NCBI GenBank assembly: GCA_017643495.1
Contig: JAEPNK010000002.1
Location: 1 to 64,000, forward strand
Source of the DNA: Rhizobiaceae bacterium
GTDB taxonomy: Bacteria; Pseudomonadota; Alphaproteobacteria; Rhizobiales; Rhizobiaceae
Direction of reading: 5' to 3'
DNA: 64,000 bases
Numbering within the stretch: position 1 is the first letter of the stretch; each line of letters opens with the position of its first letter. Made by a program: the position numbers and the translations under genes. Below the pieces are notes generated by a model. That model searched no databases and was not told the DNA's origin. It saw only the letters and a program-made list of their open reading frames with translations. Of this stretch, positions 6,026-25,904 are shown in pieces.

Positions 6026-7072
6026 ATGTCGAAATTCTGGGAACGGCATCCGTTTTGGTCGTTGATCATCGTTCTGGTGATTGCCGTTTTCATTTGGGCA
6101 ATTTTTGCCCCTTGGCCCTCCGGCATAACCGACATGTTCGGACGCAAAAAGGTCTTTCTGAATGCGTTGTTCAGCGGTGTCACGCTTGGTGCGCTTTACT
6201 TTCTTGCTGCAAGCGGGTTCACACTTATTTTCGGTCTCATGCAGAATGTGAACCTCGCTCACGGTTCACTCTACCTGTTGGGTGGATATGTGGGGTACCA
6301 GATTTCCATTGCCACTGCTGATGCGAGCGGCAATGTTGTGAATTACACCTTTTGGTGGCTCCTTGCCTTCGTTGGAGCATTCTTGGCTTGCGCCATATTC
6401 GGCATGTTCCTCCAATACGCTGTGTTTCGGCGAATGGAAGGGGATGACCTGAAACAGACGCTTGTCACAATCGGGATTTCCATTGTCGCAGCAGACCTCA
6501 TGCTGTGGTACTGGGGTGGCGATTTCTACACGATAGCCACGCCGCAATGGCTCGCCGGTCCCACGCAATTGCCGCTTGCAACAGCAGTAAAGAGCAGCGG
6601 GGATGTTGTCTTCCTCAAATATCCCAGTGTTCGCCTTCTAATTCTGGTAGCAGCAATTGTTATCGGCGTACTCATGTGGCTGGCACTAAACCGTACACGA
6701 GTGGGCATGCTGGTTCGTGCAGGGGTTGATGATCGTGACATGCTCTCGGCCTCCGGTGTGCGTATCCAGCGGATTTTCATTCTGGTATTTGCCTTTGGGG
6801 CAGGTCTTGCAGGCATTGCCGGGGTAGTGGGGGGAACCTTCCAGTCTCTCGCGCCGGGCGAGGATACCAGCATCTTGCTCTCATCCCTGGTTGTGGTGAT
6901 CGTGGGGGGTATGGGCTCTATCCCGGGTGCTGCCCTGGGCGCATTGATTATCGGTCTCGCTGAGCAGTTCGGCTCGGTATATCTGCCAACTTATGCACCG
7001 GTTCTGACATTCGTCATCATGGCTGGTGTTCTGGCATTCCGCCCGCAGGGCCTCATTACGAGCGGGCGGTGA
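6026..7072 (+). CDS. Branched-chain-amino-acid-type ABC permease (LivH-like)
   Basis: A 348-residue membrane permease of the LivH family. Hydrophobic helices run from GVTLGALYFLAASGFTLIFG onward, and the signature MQNVNLAHGSLYLLGGYVGY is characteristic. The C-terminal part carries FGAGLAGIAGVVGG and VVVIVGGMGSIPGAALGALI. An extra N-terminal hydrophobic segment (WSLIIVLVIAVFIWAIF) lies before the core fold, which makes it longer than typical LivH of about 300 residues. It pairs with the next gene, with a 4-base stop/start overlap indicating translational coupling. It begins the long run of cotranscribed genes. Confidence 0.9.
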   Translation: MSKFWERHPFWSLIIVLVIAVFIWAIFAPWPSGITDMFGRKKVFLNALFSGVTLGALYFLAASGFTLIFGLMQNVNLAHGSLYLLGGYVGYQISIATADASGNVVNYTFWWLLAFVGAFLACAIFGMFLQYAVFRRMEGDDLKQTLVTIGISIVAADLMLWYWGGDFYTIATPQWLAGPTQLPLATAVKSSGDVVFLKYPSVRLLILVAAIVIGVLMWLALNRTRVGMLVRAGVDDRDMLSASGVRIQRIFILVFAFGAGLAGIAGVVGGTFQSLAPGEDTSILLSSLVVVIVGGMGSIPGAALGALIIGLAEQFGSVYLPTYAPVLTFVIMAGVLAFRPQGLITSGR

Positions 7073-8148
7073 CAATGGCAGTGGTGGATCACAAGACTTT
7101 CGATACAAACGATGCCGACAAGGAAGGTGTTTCCGAGCCATCTCGCACCGGCGTGTACTGGGCGGTCGGCTTGATATTGGTAATTCTGCCTGCCTTTACC
7201 GGTGAATTCATCCTGTCTGACATTGTCAGCAGGATTTTGGTGATGGGCATGATCGCGCTTTCACTGATGTTTCTGGCCGGCTATGGCGGCATGGTTAGTC
7301 TTGCGCAACTGACGATTGCCGGTGTCGCCGCGTACATGACCGCTGTATTCGGCACAAGTGCGATAACCGAAATTTCAATCGGCCTGACATGGTGGATTGC
7401 AGTCCCCATTGCAATCATCATCGCGATGATTTTCGGAACGATGGTAGGGGCGCTGTCGGTGCGTACCGAAGGCATCTATACCATCATGATCACGCTGGCC
7501 ATTTCGGCAGCATTCTTCTTTCTGGCAAACCAGAACTACGATATCTTCAACGGGTTTAGCGGTATCAATCAGGTGCTTCCGCCGGTTTTTGTGGGTGTGA
7601 ACTGGGGCAACACGATTCCGTTTTACTATCTCTGCCTGTTTCTTGCGGCAGTTTCCTATGCGCTTGTTCTTTACGTTTCGCGTTCACCGTTCGGTCTTGC
7701 CCTTCAGGGCATACGGGACAATCCGAGACGCATGGCAGCTCTCGGTTTCAACGTCACCGCTCACCGTATTGCTGCCTATACATTTGCCAGTCTTGTGGCA
7801 GGCGTCGGCGGAGTGCTGATGGTCTGGATGAATACGGCAATCTCTCCGGGCGCTGTAAGTATCGCCGTTGTAATTGATGTCTTGGTCATGGCGGTTGTCG
7901 GTGGTCTCGGCCATCCCGTAGGTGCATTTCTTGGTGCTGCTGTTTTCATCATACTGGAAACGTTTGCCCTGGATGTTCTGGAAACACTCGGTCTTCCCGG
8001 TGAACGTTTCCAGTTGCTGATCGGCATAGGGTTCCTCGTTATCATCTTCTGGTCGGATGACGGGCTGCTCGGCTTATGGCGGAAATGGCGGGAACGTTCT
8101 GCAAAGCGTGATCCGCTTCTTGGAGACTTGGAAGGGGACGGCAAATGA
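7069..8148 (+). CDS. Branched-chain-amino-acid-type ABC permease (LivM-like)
   Basis: The second permease of the importer, 359 residues, with 8-10 hydrophobic helices. LivM hallmarks are MIALSLMFLAGYGGMVSLAQ, VRTEGIYTIMITLAISAAFF and RSPFGLALQGIRDNPRRMAA, the last being the cytoplasmic coupling loop. The GTG at 7069 overlaps the LivH stop by 4 bases. An ATG at 7075 is an alternative that removes two residues. The last 4 bases overlap the LivG start. Confidence 0.92.
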   Translation: MTMAVVDHKTFDTNDADKEGVSEPSRTGVYWAVGLILVILPAFTGEFILSDIVSRILVMGMIALSLMFLAGYGGMVSLAQLTIAGVAAYMTAVFGTSAITEISIGLTWWIAVPIAIIIAMIFGTMVGALSVRTEGIYTIMITLAISAAFFFLANQNYDIFNGFSGINQVLPPVFVGVNWGNTIPFYYLCLFLAAVSYALVLYVSRSPFGLALQGIRDNPRRMAALGFNVTAHRIAAYTFASLVAGVGGVLMVWMNTAISPGAVSIAVVIDVLVMAVVGGLGHPVGAFLGAAVFIILETFALDVLETLGLPGERFQLLIGIGFLVIIFWSDDGLLGLWRKWRERSAKRDPLLGDLEGDGK

Positions 8149-8924
8149 CCGATATCGCTTCCAGGCTTTCCGGTGCAGGTACCAACGCCCTCGAATTGCG
8201 GGGCATGTCACGATACTTTGGCGCATTGGCTGCTCTCAGCGACATCACGCTGACGGTAAAACCCGGCGAACGCCGCGCCGTGCTTGGTTCCAATGGTGCG
8301 GGCAAGACGACATTGTTCAATTGCATTACGGGTGACTTTCTGCCGACAACCGGCAGTATTCGCCTTTTCGGTGAAGATGTTACCACTTTCCCGGCCCATG
8401 AACGAATTCGCCGCGGGTTGCGCAGGACCTACCAGATTTCTCTTCTGTTTGGCGGTCTGAGTGTTTTTGACAATATCTATCTTGCCTGTGCAGGCGTATC
8501 CCGCGGCCGTTTCTCCATGTTGCGTCCGCGAAAGAATGATGCGCTGGTTGCAGCAGCCGAAGACCTGATCGTAACGGTAAATCTGGCAGAGCACCGGGAA
8601 ACACTGGTCAATGTCCTTTCTTATGGTCAGCAGCGGCAACTGGAGATTGCACTTGCCCTTGCCGGAGCACCCCGTTTCATTCTTTTTGATGAACCTGCAG
8701 CAGGGCTGTCTCCCACGGAGCGCAGTGATCTCATTACCATTTTGACCAGTCTGCCGGAGCATATCGGATACATCATTATCGAGCATGACATGGATGTTGC
8801 CCTGCGTGTTTCCGAGTCTGTCACGATGATGCACAATGGCCGTATTTTCAAGGAAGGCCTGCCCCAGGAAATCGAAGAGGACCCCGAGGTTCAGGAGCTA
8901 TATCTTGGAGGTGGTCATGGTTGA
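8145..8924 (+). CDS. ABC transporter ATP-binding protein (LivG-like)
   Basis: A 259-residue ATPase of the LivG type. It has Walker A (GSNGAGKTTLFNCITG), the LivG-specific RTYQISLLFGGLSVFDN region, the variant signature LSYGQQRQLEIALALAG, Walker B (FILFDEPAAGLSP) and the H-loop (IIEHDMDVAL). LSYG replaces the canonical LSGG, as is common in LivG proteins. It energises import together with the LivF domain of the next protein. Start and stop both overlap neighbouring genes. Confidence 0.93.
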   Translation: MTDIASRLSGAGTNALELRGMSRYFGALAALSDITLTVKPGERRAVLGSNGAGKTTLFNCITGDFLPTTGSIRLFGEDVTTFPAHERIRRGLRRTYQISLLFGGLSVFDNIYLACAGVSRGRFSMLRPRKNDALVAAAEDLIVTVNLAEHRETLVNVLSYGQQRQLEIALALAGAPRFILFDEPAAGLSPTERSDLITILTSLPEHIGYIIIEHDMDVALRVSESVTMMHNGRIFKEGLPQEIEEDPEVQELYLGGGHG

Positions 8925-11115
8925 ACGTGCCAGAACCGGCCCTCCGATCCTCGATGTGCGAGGGTTGAATGTCTATTATGGTGCATCCCATGCTTTGCAG
9001 GGCGTGGACCTGACGCTGGGGTCAGGGGTCCTGTCGGTTGTCGGCAGGAACGGTATGGGCAAGACGACCCTGTGCAAGGCGATCATGGGCCTTGTTCCTG
9101 TTTCATCCGGTGCCATCCGCTTTGCCGGCCAGGATATTTCAAACATGGACCCTGCCTCGATTGCCCGGATGGGCATCGGGTATGTTCCCCAGGGTAGGCG
9201 CCTGTGGCGCTCGCTCACGGTTGATGAACATCTGCGCCTGATGGCGGGCAACAAGGGCGGTGCATGGTCACCCGAACGTATCTATTCCGTTTTCCCGCGG
9301 CTTGCCGAACGGCGTAACAATGGTGGCGGGCAGCTTTCCGGCGGTGAACAGCAGATGCTGGCAATCGGGCGTGCACTGCTTACCAATCCGAAGCTTCTGG
9401 TCATGGATGAGCCGACCGAAGGCCTCGCACCGGTGATTGTTTCCCAGGTTGAGGACATGCTGGTACGGCTGGGAGAAGAGGGTGATATCGATGTTCTGGT
9501 CATTGAGCAGAATATCGGTGTTGCAACTTCAGTTTCCGAGCAGGTCGCCATTATGGTGAACGGCCAGATCAACCGGGTAATCGATGCGGGGCAACTGGCC
9601 GGAGACAGGGATCTTCAGCAGCGTCTTCTGGGCGTTGGTCGACATTCCGAAGCTCCCGAAGAAGAGAGTTCAGAACCGGAAACAAGCCAGCCGTCACAAA
9701 AAGCTGCAGCCAAACCGGTTCGTATCTACCTTTCCAATCCAACCATTCCCAATCGCTGGTCCAGACCCGTTCCCGTCCGGGTCATTGAACAGAATGCACG
9801 TACCGTCTCGCCGATACCCGGTGTTTCCTCCAATGTTGCCAGCATGCAGGAATTCCGCCCGCTGACATCCGGGGGCGATTCTGTTGTTCTGGTGGCAGGA
9901 ACCCTTGATACCAAGGGTGAAGAATTGCGTTTCATGCGTGATATTATCCGCGGCTACAAACTGCCGGTTCGTTTGGTCGACCTCTCCACATCAGGAAAAC
10001 ATTCCGGTGCGGAAATTCCGGCTAGCCAGATAGCCGCTTTTCATCCACGTGGTGCAAGCGGGGTTTTCTCCGCTGACCGTGGGGCATCTGTGGCTGGCAT
10101 GACACTCGCATTCGAACGCTGGATGGCACAGCAATCCGGCATTGCAGGCATTATCGGGGCAGGCGGGTCAGGTGGCACGGCAATGCTGGCTCCCGCGATG
10201 CGAGCGCTCCCTGTGGGTGTGCCGAAAATGATCGTCTCAACGGTCGCATCGGGTGACGTGAGCGCTTATGTGGGGCCGTCTGACATTTCAATGATGTATT
10301 CGGTGGCTGACGTCCAGGGCCTCAACTCGATTACCAAACGGGTACTGGCAAACGGCGCCCATGCGATTGCCGGCATGGCAAGTGGTTACCGTGAAGCAGA
10401 ACGCTCACGCCATGATGGTGCCGATGAAAAACCTGTGGCCGGACTGACGATGTTTGGTGTCACAACTCCCTGTGTGCAGCAACTGGTTTCATTGCTGGAA
10501 GACAGTCATGAATGTCTCGTGTTTCATGCAACCGGTATAGGCGGCCAATCCATGGAGAAGCTCGTCGACAGCGGGATGATCCGGGCTGTTGTTGATATAA
10601 CGACAACCGAAATCTGCGACATGATCGTCGGCGGAATATTCAAGGCAACCGAGGACCGTTTCGGCGCGATCATTCGCAAACGCATTCCCTATATCGGTTC
10701 CTGCGGTGCATTGGACATGGTGAATTTCGCCGCGCCGGACACGGTCCCGGACAAGTTTTCCGACCGTCTTTTCTACCATCACAACCCGCAGATAACGCTG
10801 ATGCGCACGACGCCGGAAGAAAATGCGGAAATGGGGAGGTGGATTGGTAACCGGTTGAACCAGATGGAAGCACCGGTTCGCTTTTACCTGCCAGAAGGCG
10901 GTGTATCCATGCTCGACAAGCCGGGTGAGGCTTTCCACGATCCCAAGGCACTGAATGCCTTGTTCGATGCATTGGAAAAAACGGTCGTACAGACCACAAA
11001 CCGCCAATTGGTGCGGCTTCCATACAATATCAATGATCCGGAATTTGCCGAAGAGGTCGCAAAAACCTTTCGTCAGTTTCACGGTGGCGGACGCCAGAAA
11101 AAACAAAGGGCATGA
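8917..11115 (+). CDS. Fusion of LivF-like ABC ATPase with a Tm-1-like (UPF0261) domain
   Basis: One uninterrupted 732-residue frame with two unrelated domains. Residues 1-240 are a LivF ATPase: Walker A GRNGMGKTT at 43-51, signature LSGGEQQMLAIG, Walker B LLVMDEPTEG. Residues 245-320 form a Ser/Glu/Pro/Gln-rich linker. From about 321 (VVLVAGTLDTKGEEL) to the end it is a Tm-1-like ATP-binding domain of the UPF0261 family, with GAGGSGGTAMLAPAMRALP and the STVASGDVSAYVGPSDI stretch. The tomato Tm-1 homologue inhibits a viral replicase, and the bacterial role is not established. The ATG at 8917 overlaps livG by 8 bases and has GGAGGT upstream. A longer frame from 8836 would run back into livG. 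Confidence 0.9.
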   Translation: MVERARTGPPILDVRGLNVYYGASHALQGVDLTLGSGVLSVVGRNGMGKTTLCKAIMGLVPVSSGAIRFAGQDISNMDPASIARMGIGYVPQGRRLWRSLTVDEHLRLMAGNKGGAWSPERIYSVFPRLAERRNNGGGQLSGGEQQMLAIGRALLTNPKLLVMDEPTEGLAPVIVSQVEDMLVRLGEEGDIDVLVIEQNIGVATSVSEQVAIMVNGQINRVIDAGQLAGDRDLQQRLLGVGRHSEAPEEESSEPETSQPSQKAAAKPVRIYLSNPTIPNRWSRPVPVRVIEQNARTVSPIPGVSSNVASMQEFRPLTSGGDSVVLVAGTLDTKGEELRFMRDIIRGYKLPVRLVDLSTSGKHSGAEIPASQIAAFHPRGASGVFSADRGASVAGMTLAFERWMAQQSGIAGIIGAGGSGGTAMLAPAMRALPVGVPKMIVSTVASGDVSAYVGPSDISMMYSVADVQGLNSITKRVLANGAHAIAGMASGYREAERSRHDGADEKPVAGLTMFGVTTPCVQQLVSLLEDSHECLVFHATGIGGQSMEKLVDSGMIRAVVDITTTEICDMIVGGIFKATEDRFGAIIRKRIPYIGSCGALDMVNFAAPDTVPDKFSDRLFYHHNPQITLMRTTPEENAEMGRWIGNRLNQMEAPVRFYLPEGGVSMLDKPGEAFHDPKALNALFDALEKTVVQTTNRQLVRLPYNINDPEFAEEVAKTFRQFHGGGRQKKQRA

Positions 11116-11121: not shown

Positions 11122-11952
11122 ATGGCATTTGAGCGAAAGCAGATTTTGGAAAAGTTCCAGGCAATGAAACAGGCCGGCGAGCCGATAATCGGTGGCGGTG
11201 CGGGAACCGGCCTTTCAGCCAAATGCGAAGAGGCAGGCGGGATTGACCTCATCGTGATTTACAATTCCGGCCGGTATCGCATGGCGGGCAGGGGCTCTCT
11301 TGCCGGTCTGATGCCCTATGGTGATGCCAACGGCGTCGTGATGGAGATGGCTGGCGAGGTATTGCCTGTCGTGAAGAACACGCCGGTCCTTGCCGGGGTA
11401 TGTGCATCTGATCCTTTCCGCCTCATGGACCGGTTTCTGGACCAGGTCAGGGAGGCAGGCTTTTCCGGAATCCAGAACTTTCCGACGGTCGGATTGATCG
11501 ATGGCAATTTCCGGGCCAACCTTGAAGAAACCGGTATGTCATACAGTCTTGAAGTGGACATGGTTGCAAAGGCCCATGACAAGGACATGCTGACAACGCC
11601 TTATGTTTTCAATGAGGATGATGCGGCTGCCATGGCCAAGGCCGGTGCAGACATCATCGTCTGTCATCTTGGATTGACCACGGGCGGTTCGATCGGCGCG
11701 GAGACAGGCGTGAAGCTTGAAGAGTGTCCGGCCCTTGTCCAGAGCTGGGCGGATGCTGCACTGAAAGTCAACAAGGATGCAATCATCCTGGTGCATGGCG
11801 GACCTGTGGCAATGCCCGAAGATGCGGAATTCATTCTCAAGAACACTGATAATTGCCACGGCTTTTATGGTGCCTCATCCATGGAGAGGTTGCCAACGGA
11901 AGTGGCGCTTACAGAACAAACGCGCAAATTTAAAAAGATTCAGGGTCATTAA
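11122..11952 (+). CDS. Phosphoenolpyruvate-hydrolase-like TIM-barrel protein
   Basis: The 276 residues match the PEP_hydrolase family (Pfam PF09370). Visible marks are [19 protein letters not shown] near the N-terminus, [20 protein letters not shown], the central [19 protein letters not shown] and a C-terminal [18 protein letters not shown]. The fold is a TIM barrel, and the catalytic activity has not been demonstrated for most members. It starts 6 bases after the Tm-1 fusion gene. Genes for UPF0261 and this family are commonly adjacent, so the two products probably act on the same metabolite. Confidence 0.85.
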
Positions 11953-12003: not shown

Positions 12004-15000
12004 ATGACAGGAGAGCTCATCGGGCAATTGATACTCTGGCTGATACTGGCCGTAATTGTCATTGCCATCATTTATTGGGTCATGAACCGGCTTTACCGCA
12101 GGTCGACAAAGGAAATTGCCTTTGTACGAACCGGTTTTCTCGGAGAAAAAGTGGTGATTGATGGCGGCGCATTCGTGTGGCCGATCATCCATGACATCAC
12201 GCCGGTAAACATGAACGTCGTGCCACTGGAAGTGATCCGCAACAAGGAAGATGCGGTGATCACAAAAGACCGGATGCGCATTGATGTTGAATCAGAGTTT
12301 TATGTTCGCGTGAAGTCAAACCGGCCGGATGTGGCAATTGCAGCCTCGACACTGGGCCGGCGTACGCTCGAGCGGGAATATCTGCACTCTTTGCTCTCCA
12401 GCAAATTCGAATCTGCCCTGCGCGTCGTCGCAGCAGAGATGACCATGGCGGAACTGCATGAAAAACGCAGTGACTTTGTCAGCCGCGTGAAAGAGGTTGC
12501 GCAGGAAGATCTTGCACGCAACGGCCTTGAACTGGAAACGGTTGCGATCATGGATATTGACCAGACCGATCTGGAATATTTCAATCCTTCCAACCGGTTT
12601 GATGCTGAAGGTCTTACCACCCTTATCAAGGATATCGAGAGCCGCAGGAAACTGAGAAACGATATCGAACAGGATTCGATGATCCAGATCCGTGCGCGCA
12701 ATCTGGAAGCTGAAAAGCAGGCACTTGCCATTGAGCAGGAAAGCGAAGAAGCAAGGCTTGTCCAGGAGCGTGAGGTGGAATTCAAGCGGGCGCAACAACG
12801 CGCCGAACTGGCTCGTGAAAGAGCCGAGCGCGACACCGAAGCAGAACGTGCCCAGATTGTAGCCCGAGAAGAAATCGAACGAACCAAGATCACGAATGAC
12901 GAGGCTATTGCAAAGGCACGTATCGAGTCTGAACGGCAAATCCGGGAACAGGAAATAGCCAGAACCCAGACGATAGAATCCATCGAAATCAAATCGCGTG
13001 AGGAGATCGAGAAAGCCCGTCTTGAGCAGGAGCGTTCGGTTACTCAAGCCCGTATCAAGAACGAGCAGGAAACCCAGGCGCGCGAAATCGAAAGAAAACG
13101 TGCCCTCGAGCAAAAGGAAATTGCTGCGCGCGAAGAAACCGAGCAGCAGGAAATCGCAGCCCGCGAGACCACGGAAAAGGCACGGATCGAACAGGAACGT
13201 GCTGTCAATGAAAGCCGCATTGAGAACGAACGCCAGACACGTGAGCGTGAAATTGCTCGCCAACAGGCTGTCGAAGCTGCTGAAATTGCTTCTCGTGAGG
13301 CGACAGAAAAGCTGCGTATCGCTGAAAACCAGGGAATTTCTGCAGAACGGATTGCCAGCGACCGCAGTATTCGCGAGCTTGAAATCGAGCGTCAGAAAGC
13401 GCTTGAGGCTGCAGAGATTGCAGCATCGGAAGCCACGGAAGCTGCACGAATTGCCCGTGAGAAGAAAATTGCTGCAGAGCGTATCGCTTCTGAACAGGCA
13501 ACTCGCAAGCTTGAAATTTCCCGCAATGAAGCGCTGGAAACTGCGGAAATCTCGACACGGCAAACAGTTGAAGCTGCCAGGATTGATGTTGAGGCTAGGA
13601 TTGATCAGGAGCGCATTGCCAAACGTGAAGAAACAGTGCTTCGCGAAACCGAGTCCCAGCAGGCAACCGAGGCTGCCCGCATAGAGCAGCGGAAATATGT
13701 TGATGCTCAACGGATCGTTGCTGAAACAGAGATCCGTTCCCGCGAGATTGAACGCAATGAGTCCATAGAAGCGGCCGAAACCAATTCCCGGCGTTCGGTT
13801 GAACAGTTGCGTATCGAAAAGGAACTCGAAACATCCCGCGACCAGATTGCCCGTGACGAGGAAGTTCGCAGTCTTGAAATCGAACGCAACCGCACTCTAG
13901 ATCAGGCGCAGGTGAAGGCCGATGAATCTGTCGAAGCTGTTCGCATCGCGCAGAAAAAGGTTCTCGACGCGGAGCGGATCGCGGCTGAAAAGGAAACCCG
14001 TGCGAAGGAAATCGAGCGCAACGAGGCAATCCAGAAAACGGAAACCCAGTCTCGTCGTGTGGTCGAGCAACTTCAGATCGAGAAGGAACTTGAAACATCC
14101 CGTGAGAAGATCGGCAGGGATGAAGAGCTGCGCAACATGGAAATAGCACGCAACAAGGCGCTGGATGAGGCCCAGGTTGCAGCAGATGAGGCTGTTGAAG
14201 CAGCACGCATTTCTCAGAAACGTTCACTCGATGCAGAGCGAATTGCGGCTGAGCAGGAAACGCGTGCGAAGGAAATCGCCCGTGATGAGTCAGTCGAAAC
14301 GGCAGACATTACACGCCGCGAGAAGGTCGAACACAAGCGTATCTCGACCGAGCTCGAGCTTGAGAAAGGCAGGATTGCATCACAGCAGTCACGTGATCTG
14401 GTCAACATAGACCGTCAGAAAGCTGTCGAGGAAGCCGAAGAACAAAGGGTCATCGAACTGGCAGCGAAAAAGGCCGAGCGTGCATCCGCCGATGCCGAAC
14501 GCCAGTCTGCCGAAATCGAGGCCAAGACACGTATCGAGACATCGGATGTCAGTCGTGAACAGGCCCTTGATGCTGCCAGGCTGGAGCGCAAACGTGCTTA
14601 CGAGCAACTTGAAATTGCCAGGGTTCAGGCGCTTCGGGAAGCGGAAATTGCTTCACAGGAAGAGATTGAACGCTCCCGGATTGTTTCTGAACTTGGTCTG
14701 GATGAGGCCCGTATCAACCACGAAACAGAACGCAGGCGTCGTGAAGTGGCCCGCGAACAGGCAGTGGAAGAAGCCAAGATGGAAAAGGCTGTCGTCCTTT
14801 ACAAGAAATCACTTGAGGAATCGGCTGCCCGTGCTGCTGCAGACCTCGAGCGCGTGAAGGCAACCGAGGCTGAAGAAAAGGTCAAGACAACCCGCGAGAC
14901 AGAAGAGGCAAAACGCAAGAAAACCATTGATGTCCTGATGGCTGAAAAGCTTGCCGAAGAAGAGAAAATTGCTGCCGAGGCAGAGAAAATCAGGCGGGCC

Positions 15001-15521: not shown

Positions 15522-15959
15522 ATGGCACGTGTCTATGTTTCCAGCGTAATAGGCGCACCTGTTGCAAAGGTCTGGGACCGGGTCAGGGATTTTAACGCCC
15601 TGCCTCGCTGGCACCCGCGCATTCAGGAAAGCAGGATCGAGGAGGGGGAACCCTCGGACAAGATTGGTTGTGTGCGAAATTTCACTGTCCAGAACGGCGA
15701 CCGCATACGGGAAAAACTGCTTGGCTTGTCCGACTATGACTATTTCTGCACTTACGCAATTCTGGAAAGCGGAATGCCCCTGACCGATTATGTGGCCACA
15801 TTGCGCCTGACACCGGTGACAGACGGGGACAGGACGTTTGTTGAATGGTCTGCGGATTTTGAGTGCGCCCCCGAAAATGAAAACGATCTTGTCGAAGGCA
15901 TTGGCAGCAATGTCTTTCAGGCCGGATTTGATGCCCTGAAACGGCATTTCAGCGGGTAG
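15522..15959 (+). CDS. SRPBCC-family protein (polyketide-cyclase/CoxG-like fold), copy 1
   Basis: This 145-residue START-like protein opens with VYVSSVIGAPVAKVWDRVRD and FNALPRWHP, the standard beginning of the Polyketide_cyc2/SRPBCC fold, which encloses a deep hydrophobic ligand pocket. It is paralogous to the next gene (shared SDKIGCVRNF/ADRIGCVRNF and PVTDGDR blocks). In CO dehydrogenase clusters the SRPBCC protein CoxG helps link the hydroxylase to the membrane. A comparable role here is inferred from position, directly before the hydroxylase genes and after the flotillin. The ATG follows the flotillin stop by 2 bases. Confidence 0.88.
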   Translation: MARVYVSSVIGAPVAKVWDRVRDFNALPRWHPRIQESRIEEGEPSDKIGCVRNFTVQNGDRIREKLLGLSDYDYFCTYAILESGMPLTDYVATLRLTPVTDGDRTFVEWSADFECAPENENDLVEGIGSNVFQAGFDALKRHFSG

Positions 15960-17236: not shown

Positions 17237-17725
17237 ATGACCAAGAAACCGGTTCAGTTTCAACTCAACGGAGACCAGAAGGCGACGTTTGTCGACGACG
17301 GACAAAACCTGCTGGATGTATTGCGACGCGGTGTTGGGGACCTTACGCCCAAATTTGGTTGTGCGCAGGGAACCTGTGGCACTTGCACTGTCCTTATCGA
17401 TGGCCAACCGCATATGTCCTGTTTGACACTTGCAGAAACCGTGGAGGGCAAGAGTGTCACAACAACTGCCGGCCTTGAAAATGGTGCTGAACTGCACCCG
17501 TTGCAAAAGGCATTCATGGAGCAGTTTGCTGCCCAATGCGGCTATTGCACTCCCGGTATGCTGATGGCGGCCAAGGCTTTGCTTGATACCAACCCAAACC
17601 CGACACGCGAGGAAGTGGTCGAGGCAATTTCCGGCAATATATGCCGGTGCACGGGTTACGAAGCAATCATCAATGCAATTCTCAGCGTCGCTGGCAACAG
17701 TCCCCAGCGCTATGGAGTGCGTTAA
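17237..17725 (+). CDS. Molybdenum hydroxylase [2Fe-2S] small subunit (CoxS-like)
   Basis: The 162-residue protein has both expected clusters. The plant-ferredoxin-type cluster uses C42, C47, C50 and C62. The second cluster, in the helical domain, uses C101, C104, C136 and C138 (CGYC and CRC). All eight ligands are present, so it should be functional in passing electrons from the molybdenum site to FAD. It ends immediately before the large-subunit ATG with no spacer, indicating coupled translation. Confidence 0.95.
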   Translation: MTKKPVQFQLNGDQKATFVDDGQNLLDVLRRGVGDLTPKFGCAQGTCGTCTVLIDGQPHMSCLTLAETVEGKSVTTTAGLENGAELHPLQKAFMEQFAAQCGYCTPGMLMAAKALLDTNPNPTREEVVEAISGNICRCTGYEAIINAILSVAGNSPQRYGVR

Positions 17726-19449: not shown

Positions 19450-20472
19450 ATGACACTGCACCGTGGCAAGGGATTTGCAGCAATCAATTATCCGATCGGT
19501 ATGAACCTTGGCGGCGACCCGTCACAAGCACTCGTCCATTCCAATCCTGACGGAAAGTTCATGGTTGCCCTTTCTTCCATTGATTTGGGGCAGGGCATGA
19601 AATCGGTAACCCGCCAGATAGCAGCAGAAACACTCGGCATCCCAGTGGGGGACGTTTATGTCGACACGGCTGACTCGGACACGGGACCGCATTGCATGGG
19701 CTCGTTTGCCTCCCGTGGTACACACAGGGTCGGGAATGCGGTCATTCAGGCAGCACTCGAGGCGCGTAGCGTCATGCTGGAAGCGGCTGCTGAAGAACTC
19801 GAAGTCAATGCAGCGGATCTGGAAACCGACGGGAAGGGCAATATCCACGTCAAGGGCGCGCCATCCCGCTCAATCACCACGGCTGAAGCGTGTGGAGCCG
19901 CACAGTTCAAACAGGGCAAGACAGTCTCGGGACGGGGAATTTTCCTCATTCCGATGTCAGATGTTGACCCGGATACAGGTGAAATGACCCCGGTATCGTG
20001 TTTTGCCCATGCCGCACTGGTGGTGGAAATCGAGGTGGATGACGAGACTGGTGAAATCGAGGTGCTGGAAATGAATTCAGCCTACGAAGTCGGTCGTGCG
20101 CTCAATCCCCGACTTGTGGAACAACAGCTTGTTGGCGGTGCCTGGATGGGAATGAGCCATGCGCTTTGGGAGACAACAGAGCCCAATTATCCTGATCGCA
20201 GTCATGGGCCGCGTGATTTCAACGAATATGTCATGCCTGGCCCCGGAGACATTTGTACCCACAATATAGCAGTTCTTGAACGCCCGGCCGAAGACGCACC
20301 CTATGGCGGCAAGGGGCCGGGGGAGATGTGTGCAAACCCTGTTCTGCCCGCAATGGCCAATGCTGTCTATAATGCGGTTGGCGTCCGGGTCGATGATTTG
20401 CCGATAACACCCGAAAAAGTCCTGCGTGGCATTCGCCAGAATGGCGGCGCAAGGCCTCAGGCCAGGAGATAG
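19450..20472 (+). CDS. Molybdenum hydroxylase large subunit, C-terminal half
   Basis: These 340 residues match the second molybdenum-binding domain. Landmarks are SSIDLGQGMKSVTRQIAAE, SDTGPHCMGSFASRGT (the family's D-x-x-P...G..GSR-type loop), EVLEMNSAYEVGRALNP and GGKGPGEMCANP with the catalytic glutamate at E292. It begins MTLHRGKGFAAINYPIG, the point where a one-chain large subunit would continue (GKGIA...). AGGGAGAAGG precedes ATG at good spacing. With the previous gene it should assemble one active large subunit from two chains. Confidence 0.9.
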   Translation: MTLHRGKGFAAINYPIGMNLGGDPSQALVHSNPDGKFMVALSSIDLGQGMKSVTRQIAAETLGIPVGDVYVDTADSDTGPHCMGSFASRGTHRVGNAVIQAALEARSVMLEAAAEELEVNAADLETDGKGNIHVKGAPSRSITTAEACGAAQFKQGKTVSGRGIFLIPMSDVDPDTGEMTPVSCFAHAALVVEIEVDDETGEIEVLEMNSAYEVGRALNPRLVEQQLVGGAWMGMSHALWETTEPNYPDRSHGPRDFNEYVMPGPGDICTHNIAVLERPAEDAPYGGKGPGEMCANPVLPAMANAVYNAVGVRVDDLPITPEKVLRGIRQNGGARPQARR

Positions 20473-20477: not shown

Positions 20478-21359
20478 ATGCCGATCAACTCCACTATTGT
20501 TGGCATCGACAGCCCGGAGACGCTCGCAAGAGCGCTTGTCGATGCGCAATATCTGGCGGGGGATGATCTGTCGACATCGGCATACCTGGCGCTGGCGCTT
20601 GGCAAACCGCTGTTGTTGGAGGGCGCGCCCGGCGTTGGCAAGACCGAGGGGGCGAAAGCCATTGCCTCTGTTTTGGGCAGACAACTTGTACGATTGCAGT
20701 GCTTTGAGGGGATTGATTCCGCTTCTGCACTTTATGAGTGGAACTATCCGCGCCAGATGCTCGCTATCCGGGCAGCGGAAGACCGGTATGTGAACATCTA
20801 TTCCGATGATTTCCTGATTGCGAGACCCATGATGGACGCGCTCAAGAATCCCAGGGATACGGTGTTGCTCATTGACGAGGTCGACCGCTCGGATCACGAA
20901 TTCGAAGCCTTCCTGCTGGAGTTCCTTTCCGATTTTTCAATTTCAATTCCCGAGCGCGGTACGCTGCGGGCGGAATCCCGGCCGGTCGTGGTCCTGACTT
21001 CCAACCGGACACGGGAGCTTCACGAAGCCCTGCGACGTCGCTGCGTCTATAACTGGATTGATTATCCCGATCCCGTGCGGGAAGCCCAGATTGTCATGAT
21101 GCGCGCTAGCGCCGTAACACAGGAAACGGCCGCCAAGGTTGTGCGGGCGGTTGGTGCATTGCGTGCCGAACCGTTGGCAAAACCGCCCGGGGTTGCTGAG
21201 ACCGTTGAATGGGCGGAAGCGGCAACGGTTCTCAACCAGCAGGGCGCAGATTGGCCCCAGGCTTTCAAGCGTGCGATTGGTGTTGTCCTGAAAGACCAGG
21301 ATGATCTGGTTTTCATGGATGGCAGGATTGATGCAATGCTTGAGGAGGCAGCAGCATGA
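20478..21359 (+). CDS. MoxR/CoxD-type AAA+ ATPase
   Basis: A 293-residue AAA+ ATPase with Walker A GAPGVGKT at 49-56, Walker B LLIDEVDRSD and sensor VVLTSNRTRELHEALRRR. In CO dehydrogenase clusters CoxD acts with CoxE to mature the metal centre after cofactor insertion. This copy sits directly after the large-subunit genes and overlaps the CoxE gene by 4 bases, the same arrangement. Likely role: ATP-driven activation of the molybdenum hydroxylase. Confidence 0.9.
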   Translation: MPINSTIVGIDSPETLARALVDAQYLAGDDLSTSAYLALALGKPLLLEGAPGVGKTEGAKAIASVLGRQLVRLQCFEGIDSASALYEWNYPRQMLAIRAAEDRYVNIYSDDFLIARPMMDALKNPRDTVLLIDEVDRSDHEFEAFLLEFLSDFSISIPERGTLRAESRPVVVLTSNRTRELHEALRRRCVYNWIDYPDPVREAQIVMMRASAVTQETAAKVVRAVGALRAEPLAKPPGVAETVEWAEAATVLNQQGADWPQAFKRAIGVVLKDQDDLVFMDGRIDAMLEEAAA

Positions 21360-22492
21360 ATCCTGCAAGTTCCGGAAATACCGAACATGATCTTCCAAGG
21401 GCGGCATGGCCCTTTGTTGAATTTGCTTCGGTCCTGCGGGAAAACGGTTTTGCCGTGGCTCCGGAGCAGACCCGTTCTTTCATTGCATCTGTCGGATTGC
21501 TTGGACCACGCAGCATGCGGGACATTTACCGCTCGGCCCTGGCAAATTTTGCACCACCTCCCGAAAGGCGCGAGCAGTTTGATGCACTCTATCGCCTTGT
21601 GTTTCTCGGCCAATCCCTTGCTGAACGGGTAACCGACGATGAGGATGACGAGGTTCAGGCCTTTGATGAAAGGGATGGCGACAGTGAACCGCCGGAAGCA
21701 CAAGAGGAAAATGAATCCGGCGCGGAAGCAACCACTCTAGAAACGCTGGGTGTAAGGCAGTTCAACCGGCAGGATGACGATCTGGCCCTAACCAGGTTGC
21801 GCAGGCTGGCACCCCGCACTTTGCCGCAACGTGTTTCGAGGCGTCGCAAGTCTTCCCGCACCGGCGTTTACACGGACATGCGCAAGGTTTTGCGGGAGGC
21901 GGTAAAACGGGATGGGGAAGTGCTGACCTTGCCTTCACTGACCCGAAAGACCCGTCAGCGGCGCATTCTTTTGCTGGTCGACGTGTCAGGGTCGATGAAA
22001 GAACAGACGGAAAGCTGCTTGCGGTTTGCACACCAGTTGATGCGCAGTTCCGACCAGATGGAAGCATTCACGCTGGGAACACGGCTTACCCGTGTTACAA
22101 GGGCATTGCGCCAACGCCACCGTGAGCAGGCACTTTCATCTGTCGCAAACCTTGTTGCCGACTGGGACGGGGGTACGCGCCTGGGTGACGCACTTCAGTC
22201 ATTCCTCTCAGTGCCACGATTTGCCGGTTTTGTTCGCGGCTCCCTGGTGATTGTTCTGTCTGACGGTCTTGAGCGTGGAGATCCCGATGCAATCACCGAT
22301 GCAATGTTGAGAATTTCCCGGCTTGCATGGTCGGTTTTGTGGCTCTCGCCGCTTGTATCGGGGAAGGAAGAATTCCTGCCGCAAACCGAGGCTCTTCAGG
22401 CGATTGCGCCGTATGTCGACCGGTTTGGCAGTGGCCAGACAATTGCATCCCTGTGCGATGAAATCCTGAATTATTCCCGAAAGGCTGCCTAA
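21356..22492 (+). CDS. CoxE-like von Willebrand factor A-domain protein
   Basis: This 378-residue protein of the VWA_CoxE family contains a metal-ion-dependent adhesion site, D209-x-S211-x-S213 in LLLVDVSGSMKEQTES. The matching downstream residues are in FTLGTRLTRVTRAL and VIVLSDGLERGDP. An acidic stretch (DDEDDEVQAFDERDGDSEPP) lies before the domain. It partners the preceding MoxR ATPase. Start and stop overlap both neighbours (4 bases and 1 base). CoxF, the third partner in Oligotropha, is not seen nearby. Confidence 0.9.
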   Translation: MNPASSGNTEHDLPRAAWPFVEFASVLRENGFAVAPEQTRSFIASVGLLGPRSMRDIYRSALANFAPPPERREQFDALYRLVFLGQSLAERVTDDEDDEVQAFDERDGDSEPPEAQEENESGAEATTLETLGVRQFNRQDDDLALTRLRRLAPRTLPQRVSRRRKSSRTGVYTDMRKVLREAVKRDGEVLTLPSLTRKTRQRRILLLVDVSGSMKEQTESCLRFAHQLMRSSDQMEAFTLGTRLTRVTRALRQRHREQALSSVANLVADWDGGTRLGDALQSFLSVPRFAGFVRGSLVIVLSDGLERGDPDAITDAMLRISRLAWSVLWLSPLVSGKEEFLPQTEALQAIAPYVDRFGSGQTIASLCDEILNYSRKAA

Positions 22493-23373
22493 TGAACATT
22501 GTTGATGCCCATCATCACATATGGCGCCAGGCAGACCTGCCATGGCTTCAGGGACCGACCCAGCCACGTATTTTCGGGCGGTATGATCCAATCAAGCGTG
22601 ATTATCCGGTTACGGAATATCTGGAAGATATCGCTAGCTGCGGGATCGTGAAATCCGTGTATGTTCAGGTGAACTGGTCACCGGAACGCTATCTTGATGA
22701 AGCGCGATGGATTGAAGATGTGTCACGGGAAACTGGCTGGCCTCACGCGCAAGTTGGGTTCGCAGACCTGACGGTTGACGATGCCCGCCCTGCGCTGGAT
22801 GCACTTGCCGAATTTACAACAATGAGAGGTATACGCCAGCAATTGCACTGGCATGAAAACCCGCTCTATCGTTTCGCCAGTGGCCCGGATGTTGTGTGCG
22901 ACAAGAACTTGATCGCCAATGTTGCCAGACTTGCAGACTACGGGTGGAGTTTCGATCTGCAAGTATTTGACGACCAGATGGACGCGGCTGGCGAACTTGT
23001 CGATGCTTGTTCAAATGTTCCATTCATCCTGCAACACGCCGGGATGCTGGAAGACACATCTGATGAAGGCAGGGACAAATGGCTGGAAAGCCTGAAAAGA
23101 CTGGCTGGCAGGAAAAATGTTTTCTGCAAGCTTTCCGGTTTCGGGACCTTCATCCACCAGAACAGTGAAGCACATATCCAGTGGATGATTGATCAGTCAG
23201 TCTCCGTATTCGGTGCTGACCGGTGTTTGTTTGGTTCCAATTTTCCAATTGAGAAAATCTGGACATCCTATTCGGAGCTGATTGCAAGCTTTCTGCACGC
23301 AACGGCTGGCCTTGATGCCGCGGACAGACGGGCAATCTTTCACGACAATGCATGCCATATTTACAAAATTTGA
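22492..23373 (+). CDS. Amidohydrolase-2-family metal-dependent hydrolase (lactonase type)
   Basis: A 293-residue TIM-barrel hydrolase of the family that includes 2-pyrone-4,6-dicarboxylate lactonase and fuconolactonase. DAHHHIW at residues 5-11 supplies the first metal/substrate histidines, MRGIRQQLHW and LQHAGML lie in the middle, and GSNFPIEK near the end carries the usual late catalytic region (canonically G-S-D/N-x-P). It probably hydrolyses a lactone or cyclic amide formed after hydroxylation, but the substrate is unknown. ATG overlaps the CoxE stop by one base. Confidence 0.87.
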   Translation: MNIVDAHHHIWRQADLPWLQGPTQPRIFGRYDPIKRDYPVTEYLEDIASCGIVKSVYVQVNWSPERYLDEARWIEDVSRETGWPHAQVGFADLTVDDARPALDALAEFTTMRGIRQQLHWHENPLYRFASGPDVVCDKNLIANVARLADYGWSFDLQVFDDQMDAAGELVDACSNVPFILQHAGMLEDTSDEGRDKWLESLKRLAGRKNVFCKLSGFGTFIHQNSEAHIQWMIDQSVSVFGADRCLFGSNFPIEKIWTSYSELIASFLHATAGLDAADRRAIFHDNACHIYKI

Positions 23374-23403
23374 AAAATCTCAGGATTGAAGGAGGAATAA
23401 TCC

Positions 23404-24252
23404 ATGGCGCTCGAAATTCACTTGCTGGACTATGGTGACATCGAACTGGAATCAAGCTTTCTGGTTTTGGGACGCGAGTGCGGCCGCACAAGGAGGGTTC
23501 CGGTTTACGGTTTCCTGATTACGGGTGGTCAATATCCGGTGCTGGTTGATACAGGCTATCGTGACAATGCGATCATGGAGTCGCTTGGCATGCGGGGGCT
23601 GCAGTTCCACGAAAACATGATTGAAAATCAACTTGCCCGTTTCGACATGAAGCCGGGCGATATCCGCTACATTTGCCACACACACTGCCATATCGACCAT
23701 GCCGGCAAGGATGACCATTTTCCAATGACAACCACAGTGGTTCTTAACCGCAGGGAAATGGAACATTCCGTGTCAGGCCTGATGCATCCCCAATATCCAA
23801 AACCGGATGTGCAGCATCTTGTTGAGCGTCTTCACACGCCGGGCGCCTTGCGGCTTGAAGACACGGAACTTACCGGTGAAATCGAGCTAATTCCGGGCGT
23901 CACGCTTGATTGGGCAGGTGCCCATACAGAGGGCTCAATGAATGTGCATGTGGAAACTGCCGAGGGCAGGGCAACCGTGTGCGGCGATGTTATCTACGAC
24001 TTTAACGACCAGGTTGTGAACCCGCTCAACGAAATCCATGATCACGAGCCAAGGGTTACCGGCAATCATTCTGTTTCAAAGCGTGAAGAGAAAGCAGCCA
24101 TCAAGAAGCTTTTGAACACCTCGAAATTCCTGCTGCCCATCCATGACAAGCCTGCCAAGATTGAATCTGACCAGGTTGTTGGACGGTTGGACATGCAGGT
24201 GCCGGGGCCAATCACCCAGACATTGCCGAAGCGGGACTGGTTTCCGGTCTGA
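23404..24252 (+). CDS. Metallo-beta-lactamase-fold hydrolase, N-acyl-homoserine-lactonase-like
   Basis: The protein has 282 residues with the metal motif H94-x-H96-x-D98-H99 in CHTHCHIDHAGKDD, a further His in WAGAHTEGSMNVHV and Asp in CGDVIYDF. These are the dinuclear zinc ligands of AiiA-type lactonases. Given its operon, a role on a catabolic lactone is more likely than quorum quenching, but both remain possible. AGGAGGAATAATCC precedes ATG. It lies 30 bases after the amidohydrolase gene. Confidence 0.88.
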   Translation: MALEIHLLDYGDIELESSFLVLGRECGRTRRVPVYGFLITGGQYPVLVDTGYRDNAIMESLGMRGLQFHENMIENQLARFDMKPGDIRYICHTHCHIDHAGKDDHFPMTTTVVLNRREMEHSVSGLMHPQYPKPDVQHLVERLHTPGALRLEDTELTGEIELIPGVTLDWAGAHTEGSMNVHVETAEGRATVCGDVIYDFNDQVVNPLNEIHDHEPRVTGNHSVSKREEKAAIKKLLNTSKFLLPIHDKPAKIESDQVVGRLDMQVPGPITQTLPKRDWFPV

Positions 24253-24284
24253 GGCAGTTCAATAAAGGTTGAGGAGGAGATCAC

Positions 24285-25904
24285 ATGGCACATGAGGCTT
24301 TGGATCCGGCATTCCGGTCACTGATCGACGAGCATGCACCAGTCATGCAGACTGGCACCGGCTTTGAATTTACAGAAGGGCCTGTCTGGCACCCTGTTGA
24401 CCAGTACCTGTTGTTTTCAGACATGCCGGGCGATGTCCGGCGGCGCTGGGACAGGGCCGGTGTCCGTGAGGTCATGAACCCTTCCAACAAAGGGAACGGC
24501 CTGACATATGATGCTGATCTCAACCTGCTGGTTTGTGAGCATTCAACCTCGAGTGTGGCCCGGATCAGGCCGGACGGAACGCGCGAAGTGCTTGCATCCC
24601 ATTATGACGGACGCGAACTGAACAGCCCGAATGACATTGTCGTGGCGTCGAACGGTGATATCTACTTTACCGATCCGTGGTACGGCCGCATGGACGGATT
24701 CGGGGTTGAACGGCCAAGGCAGCTTGGCTGGCAAGGTGTATTTCGCATTCCGGCAGGGCGTCAGGGTTCGGATCCGGAACTGGTTGTGGACCGGTACCTG
24801 TTCAACATGCCGAACGGCCTTTGCTTCTCACCCGGTGAAAAACTGCTCTACATCAACGATACAGAGCAGGCAAACATTCGGGTGTTTGAAGTGCAGACTG
24901 ACGGCTCATTGTCCAACGGGCGTGTATTTGCTTCCGGTATCAAGGATACGCTGAAAGCCGGTGTCCCTGACGGCATGAAATGCGATTCGGAAGGAAATGT
25001 CTGGGTTACGGCTCCCGGCGGATTGTGGGTCTATGCGCCCGATGGCAAGTTGCTTGGTACCGTCAGCATCCCGGAAATGGCTGCCAACTTTCACTGGGGT
25101 GGTGAAGACTGGCGGACACTGTTCGTTTGTGCCTGCACTTCAGTGTACAGCGTCAAGACACTGGTTGGTCCGAATAATGAACCGTTCATGAGCAGTCGGG
25201 CCCGGCCTTCTGCATCTGCGAACAGCACTTCCGCAGCATCAGCAGGGCAGGAACAACAGGCAAGCAAATCTTCGGAAAATGCAATCATGACAGACGAGGG
25301 TTTCAGACTGGATCCGTCAAGATGCGCGCTGATAATTCAGGACATGCAAAATGACGTCATCATGGATGGTGGCGCATTTGCTGATTCCGGCTCTCCCGCG
25401 CACTGCCGGGAACAAAACGCCATACCAAATGCGGTACGTCTTGCAGAACACTGCCGTTCGCTTGGTATTCCGGTCATTCATGTCTGGTTTCAACGTTCTG
25501 CCTCGCTGAACGACATGACCATGAGTTGCCCGCTTTTTGAAGGCGTGGAGGAGAACAATGCGTTGATTGACGGGACCTGGGGCAGCGAGCCAGTTACCGG
25601 TCTGTCGGCAAAGCCCGGTGATCATATTGTGAAAAAGCAACGCATGAGTGCCTGGGAAGGAACCAATCTGGAAACCATCCTGAAAGCGGAACAACGCGAC
25701 ATCATCATTGAAAGTGGCGCCTGGACCAACATGTCGGTCGAACACACCGCAAGGACTGGTGCGGACAAGGGCTATATCATGGTGATTCCCGAGGATGCCT
25801 GTTCAACAATGAATGCCGAATGGCACAAGGTTTCCATTGAATATGCCATGCAGAACGTTGCTGTTGTTACCCGGACAGACGATGTAATCCGGGCTTTGGG
25901 CTAA
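24285..25904 (+). CDS. Fusion of SMP-30/gluconolactonase with an isochorismatase-like domain lacking the cysteine nucleophile
   Basis: A 539-residue, two-domain protein. Residues about 20-300 are an SMP-30/gluconolactonase beta-propeller: EGPVWHPVDQYLLFSDMPG, the metal-binding NSPNDIVVASNGDIYFTDP and PDGMKCDSEGNVWVTAPGG. Residues 303-335 are a Ser/Ala/Gln-rich linker. From about 343 it is an isochorismatase-like alpha/beta hydrolase with D353 (QDMQND) and K450/K451 (IVKKQRMSAWEG). The nucleophile position is Ser484 in TNMSVEHTAR instead of the usual cysteine. The domain may act by a different mechanism, as true isochorismatases do, or only bind ligand. It is the last gene of the run. GAGGAGG precedes ATG. 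Confidence 0.9.
   Translation: MAHEALDPAFRSLIDEHAPVMQTGTGFEFTEGPVWHPVDQYLLFSDMPGDVRRRWDRAGVREVMNPSNKGNGLTYDADLNLLVCEHSTSSVARIRPDGTREVLASHYDGRELNSPNDIVVASNGDIYFTDPWYGRMDGFGVERPRQLGWQGVFRIPAGRQGSDPELVVDRYLFNMPNGLCFSPGEKLLYINDTEQANIRVFEVQTDGSLSNGRVFASGIKDTLKAGVPDGMKCDSEGNVWVTAPGGLWVYAPDGKLLGTVSIPEMAANFHWGGEDWRTLFVCACTSVYSVKTLVGPNNEPFMSSRARPSASANSTSAASAGQEQQASKSSENAIMTDEGFRLDPSRCALIIQDMQNDVIMDGGAFADSGSPAHCREQNAIPNAVRLAEHCRSLGIPVIHVWFQRSASLNDMTMSCPLFEGVEENNALIDGTWGSEPVTGLSAKPGDHIVKKQRMSAWEGTNLETILKAEQRDIIIESGAWTNMSVEHTARTGADKGYIMVIPEDACSTMNAEWHKVSIEYAMQNVAVVTRTDDVIRALG

Follow-up and report, generated by a model that had tools for sequence, protein, structure and literature searches.

A conserved and modular locus of Rhizobiaceae and related bacteria encoding a Liv-type importer, a giant flotillin and a split molybdenum hydroxylase

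To our knowledge, the direct clients of bacterial flotillins are poorly known. The locus described here joins a giant flotillin with a Liv-type importer, a split molybdenum hydroxylase and several hydrolases. It lies at positions 6026–25904 of the first 64,000 nucleotides (positions 1–64,000) of contig JAEPNK010000002.1 of a Rhizobiaceae bacterium (assembly GCA_017643495.1); this whole stretch of DNA was analysed and is called the window. Several described systems resemble parts of the locus. Encapsulin and microcompartment enzymes carry cargo-loading peptides, and blcABC (attKLM), the gamma-butyrolactone operon of Agrobacterium, encodes a comparable lactone-to-acid route. In the human Flotillin 1/2 cage, 44 helices form a right-handed barrel that spans 186 residues; it has no heptads, is 22 nm high and has a wall without holes (PMC11260169). 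The cox operon, coxMSLDEFG, contains the genes of CoxD and CoxE, for which sulfuration and maturation roles in carbon monoxide (CO) dehydrogenase were proposed, according to PMC4240915. The nicotinate dehydrogenase of Eubacterium barkeri (3hrd) has a molybdenum subunit that is split between its two molybdenum cofactor (MoCo) domains. The Tm-1/UPF0261 family is known mainly from a plant antiviral gene; the plant Tm-1-like protein joins a UPF0261 and a TIM-barrel domain, which are predicted to interact, and the passages of PMC5028733 on the family give no bacterial function.

The system is assigned to no known pathway, and no description of its gene combination was found in the open-licence PubMed Central literature, in agreement with a preliminary description of the locus made from the sequence alone. 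With moderate confidence, it is read as a modular import-and-oxidation system at the membrane, organised by the flotillin.

Conservation and modules of the locus

CoxL2, which forms the C-terminal half of the molybdenum subunit, was searched for in 199 genomes from the same order, probably Hyphomicrobiales. Matches at E 1e-60 or better were found in 35 genomes, 30 of them at least 78% identical and five at 61–67%, and the protein was present in 16 of 398 genomes of a phylum sample. When locus stretches fetched from 20 relatives were compared, the order from LivH to the isochorismatase-like fusion was kept on a single strand in 14 (G098, G037, G157, G113, G181, G035, G040, G013, G036, G070, G021, G019, G064, and G159), with PEPh missing from G157. 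The arrangement is not due to chance, because the order persists in relatives whose least conserved proteins are 40–50% identical. The hydroxylase core only was present in five relatives (G105, G015, G120, G172, and G087). The lactonase-type protein was also searched in 84,980 species genomes, which gave 381 encoding stretches. The best 80 of the 381, all alphaproteobacterial, contained 65 type A loci (importer/Tm-1/flotillin/SRPBCC half plus molybdenum hydroxylase, as in the window), three type C loci and 12 loci with too little at hand or too few genes to classify, a sample biased to type A by the lactonase-type query. The genes thus behave as one conserved system, as the preliminary description had proposed, and importer, flotillin, SRPBCC pair, molybdenum hydroxylase and hydrolases travel together. 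The conservation is stronger, and the system stranger, than that description could see.

The features of the locus and its upstream flank are as follows.

1958–3388, +: aldehyde dehydrogenase, 476 residues, accessory and outside 6026–25904 (NCBIfam match)
3505–4770, +: periplasmic binding protein (Peripla_BP_6), 421 residues (domain match)
5007–5837, +: AraC-family regulator, 276 residues (domain match)
6026–7072, +: LivH/UrtB-like permease (domain match)
7069–8148, +: LivM-like permease (domain match)
8145–8924, +: LivG-like ATPase (domain match)
8917–11115, +: LivF-like ATPase fused to UPF0261, the Tm-1 N-domain (domain match)
11122–11952, +: PEPh, PEP-hydrolase-like TIM barrel (PF09370), partner family of UPF0261 (domain match)
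12004–15519, +: giant flotillin, 1171 residues, with a putative wall helix periodic at 11 and 44 residues (domains, self-similarity)
15522–15959, +: SRPBCC protein 1, 145 residues (domain match, structure model)
15964–16404, +: SRPBCC protein 2, 146 residues; in type B, the counterpart carries a fused quinone-reductase-like domain (domain match)
16417–17226, +: CoxM-type flavin adenine dinucleotide (FAD) subunit (domain match)
17237–17725, +: CoxS-type 2x[2Fe-2S] subunit (domain match, motifs)
17726–19438, +: CoxL1, N-terminal half of the molybdenum subunit (MoCoBD_1) with a disordered-looking tail (domain match, motifs)
19406–19435 (approximate), +: conserved C-terminal peptide of CoxL1, RFSSISGLRRR, including the residues before the stop
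19450–20472, +: CoxL2, C-terminal half of the molybdenum subunit (MoCoBD_2), with the catalytic-Glu motif KG.GE
20478–21359, +: CoxD-type AAA+ ATPase (domain match)
21356–22492, +: CoxE-type VWA protein (VWA_CoxE; domain match)
22492–23373, +: Amidohydro_2 protein, distantly L-fuconolactonase-like (domain match)
23404–24252, +: metallo-beta-lactamase-fold hydrolase of lactonase type, HxHxDH intact (domain match, motif)
24285–25904, +: fusion of an SMP-30/gluconolactonase-like propeller with an isochorismatase-like domain, Ser at the Cys position

The open reading frame (ORF) and domain scans of the window gave 17 consecutive + strand ORFs across 6026–25904, with gaps of -4, -4, -8, 6, 51, 2, 4, 12, 10, 0, 11, 5, -4, -1, 30, and 32 bases in order; the gap of -8 assumes a LivF start at 8917, the mechanical ORF start being 8836. 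The re-measured run and gaps, the AraC regulator and binding protein directly upstream, and the domain assignments all matched the preliminary description. Its gene families stood, but the LivF–Tm-1 fusion, the CoxL1 tail and the 11-residue flotillin repeat had been overlooked. The 17 genes would probably be transcribed together. Promoter-like and terminator-like sites in the locus showed no excess over shuffled sequence, other promoter types lying outside the scan. A tRNA-Lys gene (26126–26201) and a BLUF blue-light sensor gene (26359–26754) lie directly 3' of the operon.

Two other arrangements carry the flotillin with different catalytic genes. The next-nearest flotillins (56–58% identity) sat in a type B locus in all seven inspected cases. 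Type B starts with an alpha/beta hydrolase, Amidohydro_1, LivH, LivM, the binding protein and LivG, and continues with LivF–Tm-1, PEPh (not in L175), flotillin, an SRPBCC protein and a second SRPBCC protein fused to an ADH-type domain. The best NCBIfam model of this domain was NADPH:quinone reductase (247–284 bits, below the cut-off of 348), and the fusion replaced the hydroxylase in 15 of 15 type B loci, including those of a class-wide search. Six further flotillins (49–56%, L182–L187) showed no type B context. Type C (three loci: two from Nioella, and L099) consisted of AraC, importer, flotillin, SRPBCC pair, lactonase and aldehyde dehydrogenase; the importer had LivF fused to a UPF0261-like remnant, which scored 26.8 bits (cut-off 27) in L099 only. 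The hydroxylase core stood without an adjoining flotillin in eight loci. The single 17-gene set of the preliminary description is therefore conserved together but modular, since either half occurs alone (15 type B, three type C and eight flotillin-less loci).

In L199 and L201, which have no flotillin, LivF and Tm-1 were separate genes beside PEPh and one SRPBCC gene, and in L204 the LivF–Tm-1 fusion accompanied a short flotillin of 528 residues. Because types B and C, L199/L201 and L204 vary in flotillin and redox genes, we infer that importer, Tm-1, PEPh and SRPBCC may be the base onto which flotillin and differing redox modules were added.

Further variants were observed. L196 (G686:C21:36987–56986) contained two importer/SRPBCC arrangements in tandem, the first with its own SRPBCC pair, and LivF–Tm-1 was placed after the hydrolases. 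A second PEP-hydrolase-like gene, about 30% identical, lay upstream of LivH in L204, L208, L210 and others without the giant flotillin. At L065:5517–7637 (+), in G105, a Liv-type permease domain was fused to an SMP-30/strictosidine-synthase-like domain, near a flotillin-less hydroxylase core and opposite to it in orientation. The split hydroxylase core also occurred in the halophilic archaeon Salinigranum, in Sinorhizobium and in Nonomuraea (L162, L163, and L164), and the genes that follow it in Salinigranum encode a cyclase-family and an SRPBCC protein. In G100, G064 and G159, among others, CoxL1 and CoxL2 were separated by insertions of about 1 kb; the inserted ORF matched EamA transporters in G100 and had no Pfam match in G064.

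Flotillin, LivF–Tm-1 fusion and CoxL1 tail

The Liv/Urt-type ATP-binding cassette (ABC) importer was complete, with a binding protein, two BPD_transp_2 permeases and two ATPases. Walker A was present in 15 of 15 LivG and 15 of 15 LivF proteins, and the signature LSGGE in 15 of 15 LivF. When the binding protein was compared with solved chains, the nearest were generic receptors and no substrate was indicated. The UPF0261 N- and C-terminal domains were matched at 197 and 301 bits (cut-offs 27), and the UPF0261 model NF002673 at 598 bits (cut-off 520). As in the plant Tm-1-like protein, UPF0261 and TIM-barrel domains go together, here encoded by adjoining genes, whereas UPF0261 is fused to the importer ATPase and not to the TIM barrel.

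LivF and Tm-1 shared a single ORF in every flotillin locus that could be tested (20 of 20 of type A, 14 of 14 of type B, 34 of 34 together) and in neither of the two flotillin-less loci (L199 and L201). In an independent search of the 199 genomes for the Tm-1 domain (85 matches), frames of at least 600 residues were taken as fusions and a flotillin was sought within 5 kb. The frames were long and near a flotillin in 34 cases, long and not near in five, short and near in two, and short and not near in 44. Three of the five long frames without flotillin were at or by contig ends, one (G100) was truly separate, and one (G150) was a distant homologue without LivF; the two short frames with flotillin were both at contig ends.

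The flotillin was identified by its Flot (114 bits, cut-off 27) and Band_7 (24.2 bits, cut-off 23.6) domains, and it was inherited with the hydroxylase. A close flotillin (at least 64% identity) and a close CoxL2 (at least 78%) were each found in 30 of the 199 genomes, and 29 genomes had both. G078, counted with flotillin only, carries the full set on a broken contig, and G114, counted with CoxL2 only, is a genome of 71% completeness.

These results bear on a simpler explanation, in which the locus is an ordinary catabolic operon for one compound. Its flotillin would then be a stress protein or a general organiser of membranes that was caught in the operon, and the CoxL1 tail would do no more than stabilise the split subunit or bind lipid. 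Every enzyme family in the locus is already known, as this explanation would have it. It does not account readily for the nearly one-to-one co-inheritance of the flotillin, for a LivF–Tm-1 fusion that appears along with the flotillin, or for types B and C, which retain the flotillin despite different catalytic genes. It is considered rather doubtful.

Residues 231–960 of the window flotillin were self-similar when shifted by 11, 22, 33, 44 residues and further multiples, most strongly at 44 and 88. The 11-residue self-similarity was found in 24 of 24 fully read type A flotillins (865–1171 residues), in three of three of type C, and in 14 of 15 of type B (558–857 residues), the remaining one being too short to score. 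The repeat was visible at the protein level only; the only tandem repeat in the nucleotide sequence was a 15-base unit in the Gly-rich tail. The wall-helix lengths of the type A flotillins ranged over 451–760 residues in steps of 11 (R 0.716), whereas other periods from 5 to 30 gave at most R 0.369 and none of 100,000 random sets reached 0.716. This measurement was limited to the 24 fully read proteins, since the set of 40 locus lengths included extrapolated starts. A register constraint on the wall-helix length also speaks against a flotillin merely caught in an ordinary operon.

When the window flotillin was compared with the human Flotillin 1/2 cage, both had SPFH and flotillin domains and a long, charged, non-heptad helix, which forms the wall in the human cage. 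However, the human wall helix has 186 residues, while the corresponding helix here has about 750 and keeps a strict 11-residue register. The bacterial flotillin is moreover tied to a catabolic operon. An 11-residue register suits a right-handed barrel, and the window flotillin could therefore form a wall about four times longer than the human one. In the furthest form of this idea, the flotillin would be a giant membrane-attached cage, severalfold taller than the human one, which encloses importer and catabolic enzymes and is sealed by the cell membrane. The CoxL1 tail would then be a cargo-loading peptide, the fusions (LivF–Tm-1, SRPBCC–quinone reductase, and SMP-30–isochorismatase) would load further enzymes, and the substrate would enter the chamber through the importer. 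Such a cage is a speculative and somewhat improbable extension of the preferred reading.

Beyond the MoCo domain, type A CoxL1 had a low-complexity Pro/Ala-rich stretch that ended in RFSS..G.RRR or a close variant. Among 14,299 ORFs of at least 60 residues from the collected loci, the end pattern occurred in 82, and all 82 were CoxL1 or pieces of it; they make up the available type A CoxL1 ends (16 from the window and fetched relatives, 62 from the best-80 and plasmid loci, and four more). It was absent from eight of eight CoxL1 proteins of flotillin-less loci. In a tree of 31 CoxL2 sequences, the eight flotillin-less ones formed one clade (support 0.992); the tail was therefore gained or lost once as far as seen, and the argument for it rests on its invariance and not on its correlation with the flotillin.

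The end peptide resembles a signal for docking or for cargo. As with encapsulin and microcompartment cargo, a single enzyme bears a low-complexity linker and, beyond it, a conserved peptide at its end, but here the proposed partner is the flotillin. No encapsulin or microcompartment shell genes were recognised in the operon domain scans, no genome-wide search having been made. Alternatively, the basic end of the peptide may bind the membrane. The ordinary-operon explanation gains here, in that the origin of the tail coincides with one lineage split and the C-terminal end of CoxL1 is the point where the fused subunit continues in other enzymes, so that a role in holding the subunits together is possible. 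In keeping with that explanation, the flotillin-less relatives have the subunit split without the tail and are conserved nonetheless.

Hydroxylase, hydrolases and candidate substrates

The hydroxylase had the make-up of the xanthine dehydrogenase family, with FAD, 2x[2Fe-2S] and MoCo domains and the catalytic Glu all present. The GG.FGGK, KG.GE and Fe-S cysteine patterns were intact in 21 of 21 cases. The AY.CSFR active-site loop of CoxL marks CO dehydrogenase; it was found in none of the 21 CoxL proteins, while the RGFG loop of the xanthine/aldehyde type was present in CoxL1 of all 21. The coxM-S-L-D-E gene order would suit an aerobic CO dehydrogenase or some other gas oxidase that scavenges energy. 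With the loop counts, and with no CO dehydrogenase model above cut-off, this reading is rejected as extremely improbable. When compared with coxMSLDEFG (PMC4240915), the locus shared the M-S-L-D-E order and the CoxD/CoxE maturation genes, and differed in having no CO-type loop, a split L subunit, no Pfam CoxG and added lactonase-type hydrolases. The CoxD and CoxE encoded here would be compatible with sulfuration and maturation roles.

The molybdenum subunit was split between its two MoCo domains, at the same boundary as in nicotinate dehydrogenase, and the best solved match of both CoxL halves was 3hrd (198 and 157 bits). This match favours an N-heteroaromatic pathway, in which a nicotinate- or pyridine-like acid is delivered by the binding protein, hydroxylated next to the ring nitrogen and opened as a lactam. 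In the 3-hydroxypyridine dehydrogenase HpdA of Ensifer, the SRPBCC protein is reportedly a separate subunit. However, the sequence of 3hrd is distant, and the present locus adds CoxD/CoxE, the SRPBCC pair, the importer, the flotillin and the CoxL1 tail. No ring-reducing or oxygenase gene was recognised in the operon domain scans, and the isochorismatase-like domain lacks the amidase cysteine. A pathway of this kind is unlikely.

The SMP-30 and isochorismatase-like domains were fused in 73 of 73 proteins. The isochorismatase-like domain had Ser at the catalytic Cys position in 15 of 15 and in 72 of 73 proteins (62 by pattern and 10 of the other 11 by visual inspection, the site being absent from the L139 row), and the aligned residue was Cys in 3kl2 and Gly in YecD. 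With Asp-Lys-Cys deprived of its Cys, an amidase or cysteine-hydrolase role is rejected, a correction to the preliminary description.

The lactonase-type protein, an AHL-lactonase-like metallo-hydrolase, kept the HxHxDH metal motif in 15 of 15 cases. As an AttM/BlcC lactonase it was rejected (NCBIfam AttM 43.5 bits, cut-off 390), and other lactonase models were also below cut-off (4-pyridoxolactonase 70.6 of 325 bits, AiiA 67.1 of 375 bits). In the fetched relatives it was the best conserved enzyme outside CoxL2 and CoxS (70–89% identity). Homologues occurred on Klebsiella pneumoniae plasmids (about 48% identity) and on Burkholderia records (about 62%), the latter with an iron alcohol dehydrogenase, an aldehyde dehydrogenase and an alpha-hydroxy acid oxidase.

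A gamma-lactone or furan route is a tentative possibility. The hydroxylase would turn a furan, lactol or hydroxyaldehyde into a lactone, the lactonase would give a 4-hydroxyacid, and iron alcohol and aldehyde dehydrogenases would lead to succinate or 2-oxoglutarate. The locus resembles blcABC in its metallo-beta-lactamase-fold lactonase and in the dehydrogenases that adjoin it in some relatives, and differs from it in the low AttM score. Three lactonase-type families are present in the locus, and the catalytic genes of type C are reduced to lactonase and aldehyde dehydrogenase. An iron alcohol dehydrogenase adjoined the locus in seven of 20 relatives (over 38% identical to the protein of G157), its best model being 4-hydroxybutyrate dehydrogenase (447 bits, cut-off 500). 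The best NCBIfam model of the window aldehyde dehydrogenase was alpha-ketoglutaric semialdehyde dehydrogenase (551 bits, cut-off 770), and this gene adjoined the locus in two of 20 relatives (G037 and G040) and in a Yoonia plasmid locus. Against this route, none of the dehydrogenase or lactonase matches attained its curated cut-off, and the window has no iron alcohol dehydrogenase of its own, the best homologues in its genome being about 40% identical and on another contig. The flanks of the flotillin-less cox loci gave no common substrate clue. An alcohol or aldehyde dehydrogenase joins the set in some relatives. The chemistry of the preliminary description, its final aldehyde oxidation included, is predicted at the family level.

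Proposed mechanism and significance

In the preferred reading, a membrane-bound system organised by the flotillin, the Liv-type ABC importer would bring a small organic compound into the cell, and the Tm-1 domain on LivF and its TIM-barrel partner would act on it during entry. The giant flotillin would assemble on the inner face of the membrane and gather importer and enzymes. The split xanthine-dehydrogenase-type hydroxylase, matured by CoxD/CoxE and tethered there by the CoxL1 tail, would oxidise the compound, or a derived aldehyde or heterocycle, using oxygen from water, and would pass electrons towards the quinone pool, in which the SRPBCC pair would help. The ring so formed, probably that of a lactone or lactam, would then be opened by the hydrolases (Amidohydro_2, lactonase-type and SMP-30-like). 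The aldehyde dehydrogenase, with the iron alcohol dehydrogenase in some relatives, would finish the product to a dicarboxylic acid. The chemistry of import, hydroxylation, ring or lactone opening and aldehyde oxidation, and the order of its steps, would follow from the enzyme families.

According to PMC11962113, a dehydrogenase of Sulfolobus is anchored to the membrane by a CoxG-like protein, and CoxG is cited as quinone-binding in PMC13240472. Because of these two reports and the quinone-reductase-like fusion of type B, the SRPBCC proteins may serve as an anchor for the enzyme or as carriers of quinone.

Several points weigh against the preferred reading. At Pfam E 0.001, the SRPBCC proteins matched Polyketide_cyc2, alone or with Polyketide_cyc, and were not identified as CoxG; the missing match lowers CoxG identity, not CoxG-like working. 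In the structure model of SRPBCC protein 1 (mean predicted local distance difference test score 94.3), the nearest folds among the matches listed were XoxI, YPO0625 and plant abscisic-acid receptors, which are unrelated in function, and no CoxG fold was among the 50 matches listed. The nearest solved proteins were uncharacterised ones, followed by plant abscisic-acid receptors. The Sulfolobus CoxG-like protein is described in PMC11962113 as an anchor that is not needed for electron transfer. The locus itself is not uniform. In G064 and G159 the binding protein was downstream and the locus had insertions, and L120, L125, L126 and L127 had no Amidohydro_2 gene. In L090, CoxD and the genes that precede it were missing within 3 kb of CoxE. 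Scattering of the genes in relatives, which the preliminary description had named as evidence against a single system, was found in one genome, G100, where flotillin to Amidohydro_2 stayed together and the importer half lay about 170 kb from the hydroxylase half; the order was kept in 14 of the 20 relatives. Type C genomes combined a long flotillin with no close CoxL2 (best 33% identity), and the lengths of type B flotillins were not quantised by 11. The tail and its linkage to the flotillin may reflect one evolutionary event. The association of long Tm-1 frames with flotillin (Fisher p ~5e-16) carries an optimistic p value, because the genomes are related.

If the preferred reading is true, a bacterial flotillin would be more than a loose raft marker: it would act as a scaffold, perhaps even a cage, dedicated to import-coupled catabolism, and the catalytic modules on it would be exchangeable. 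The Tm-1/UPF0261 family would gain a bacterial setting, beside an importer and fused to it. The locus supplies a concrete and genetically testable set of partners for bacterial flotillins, and it would represent an oxidative pathway that is uncharacterised yet widespread among Hyphomicrobiales and Rhodobacterales.

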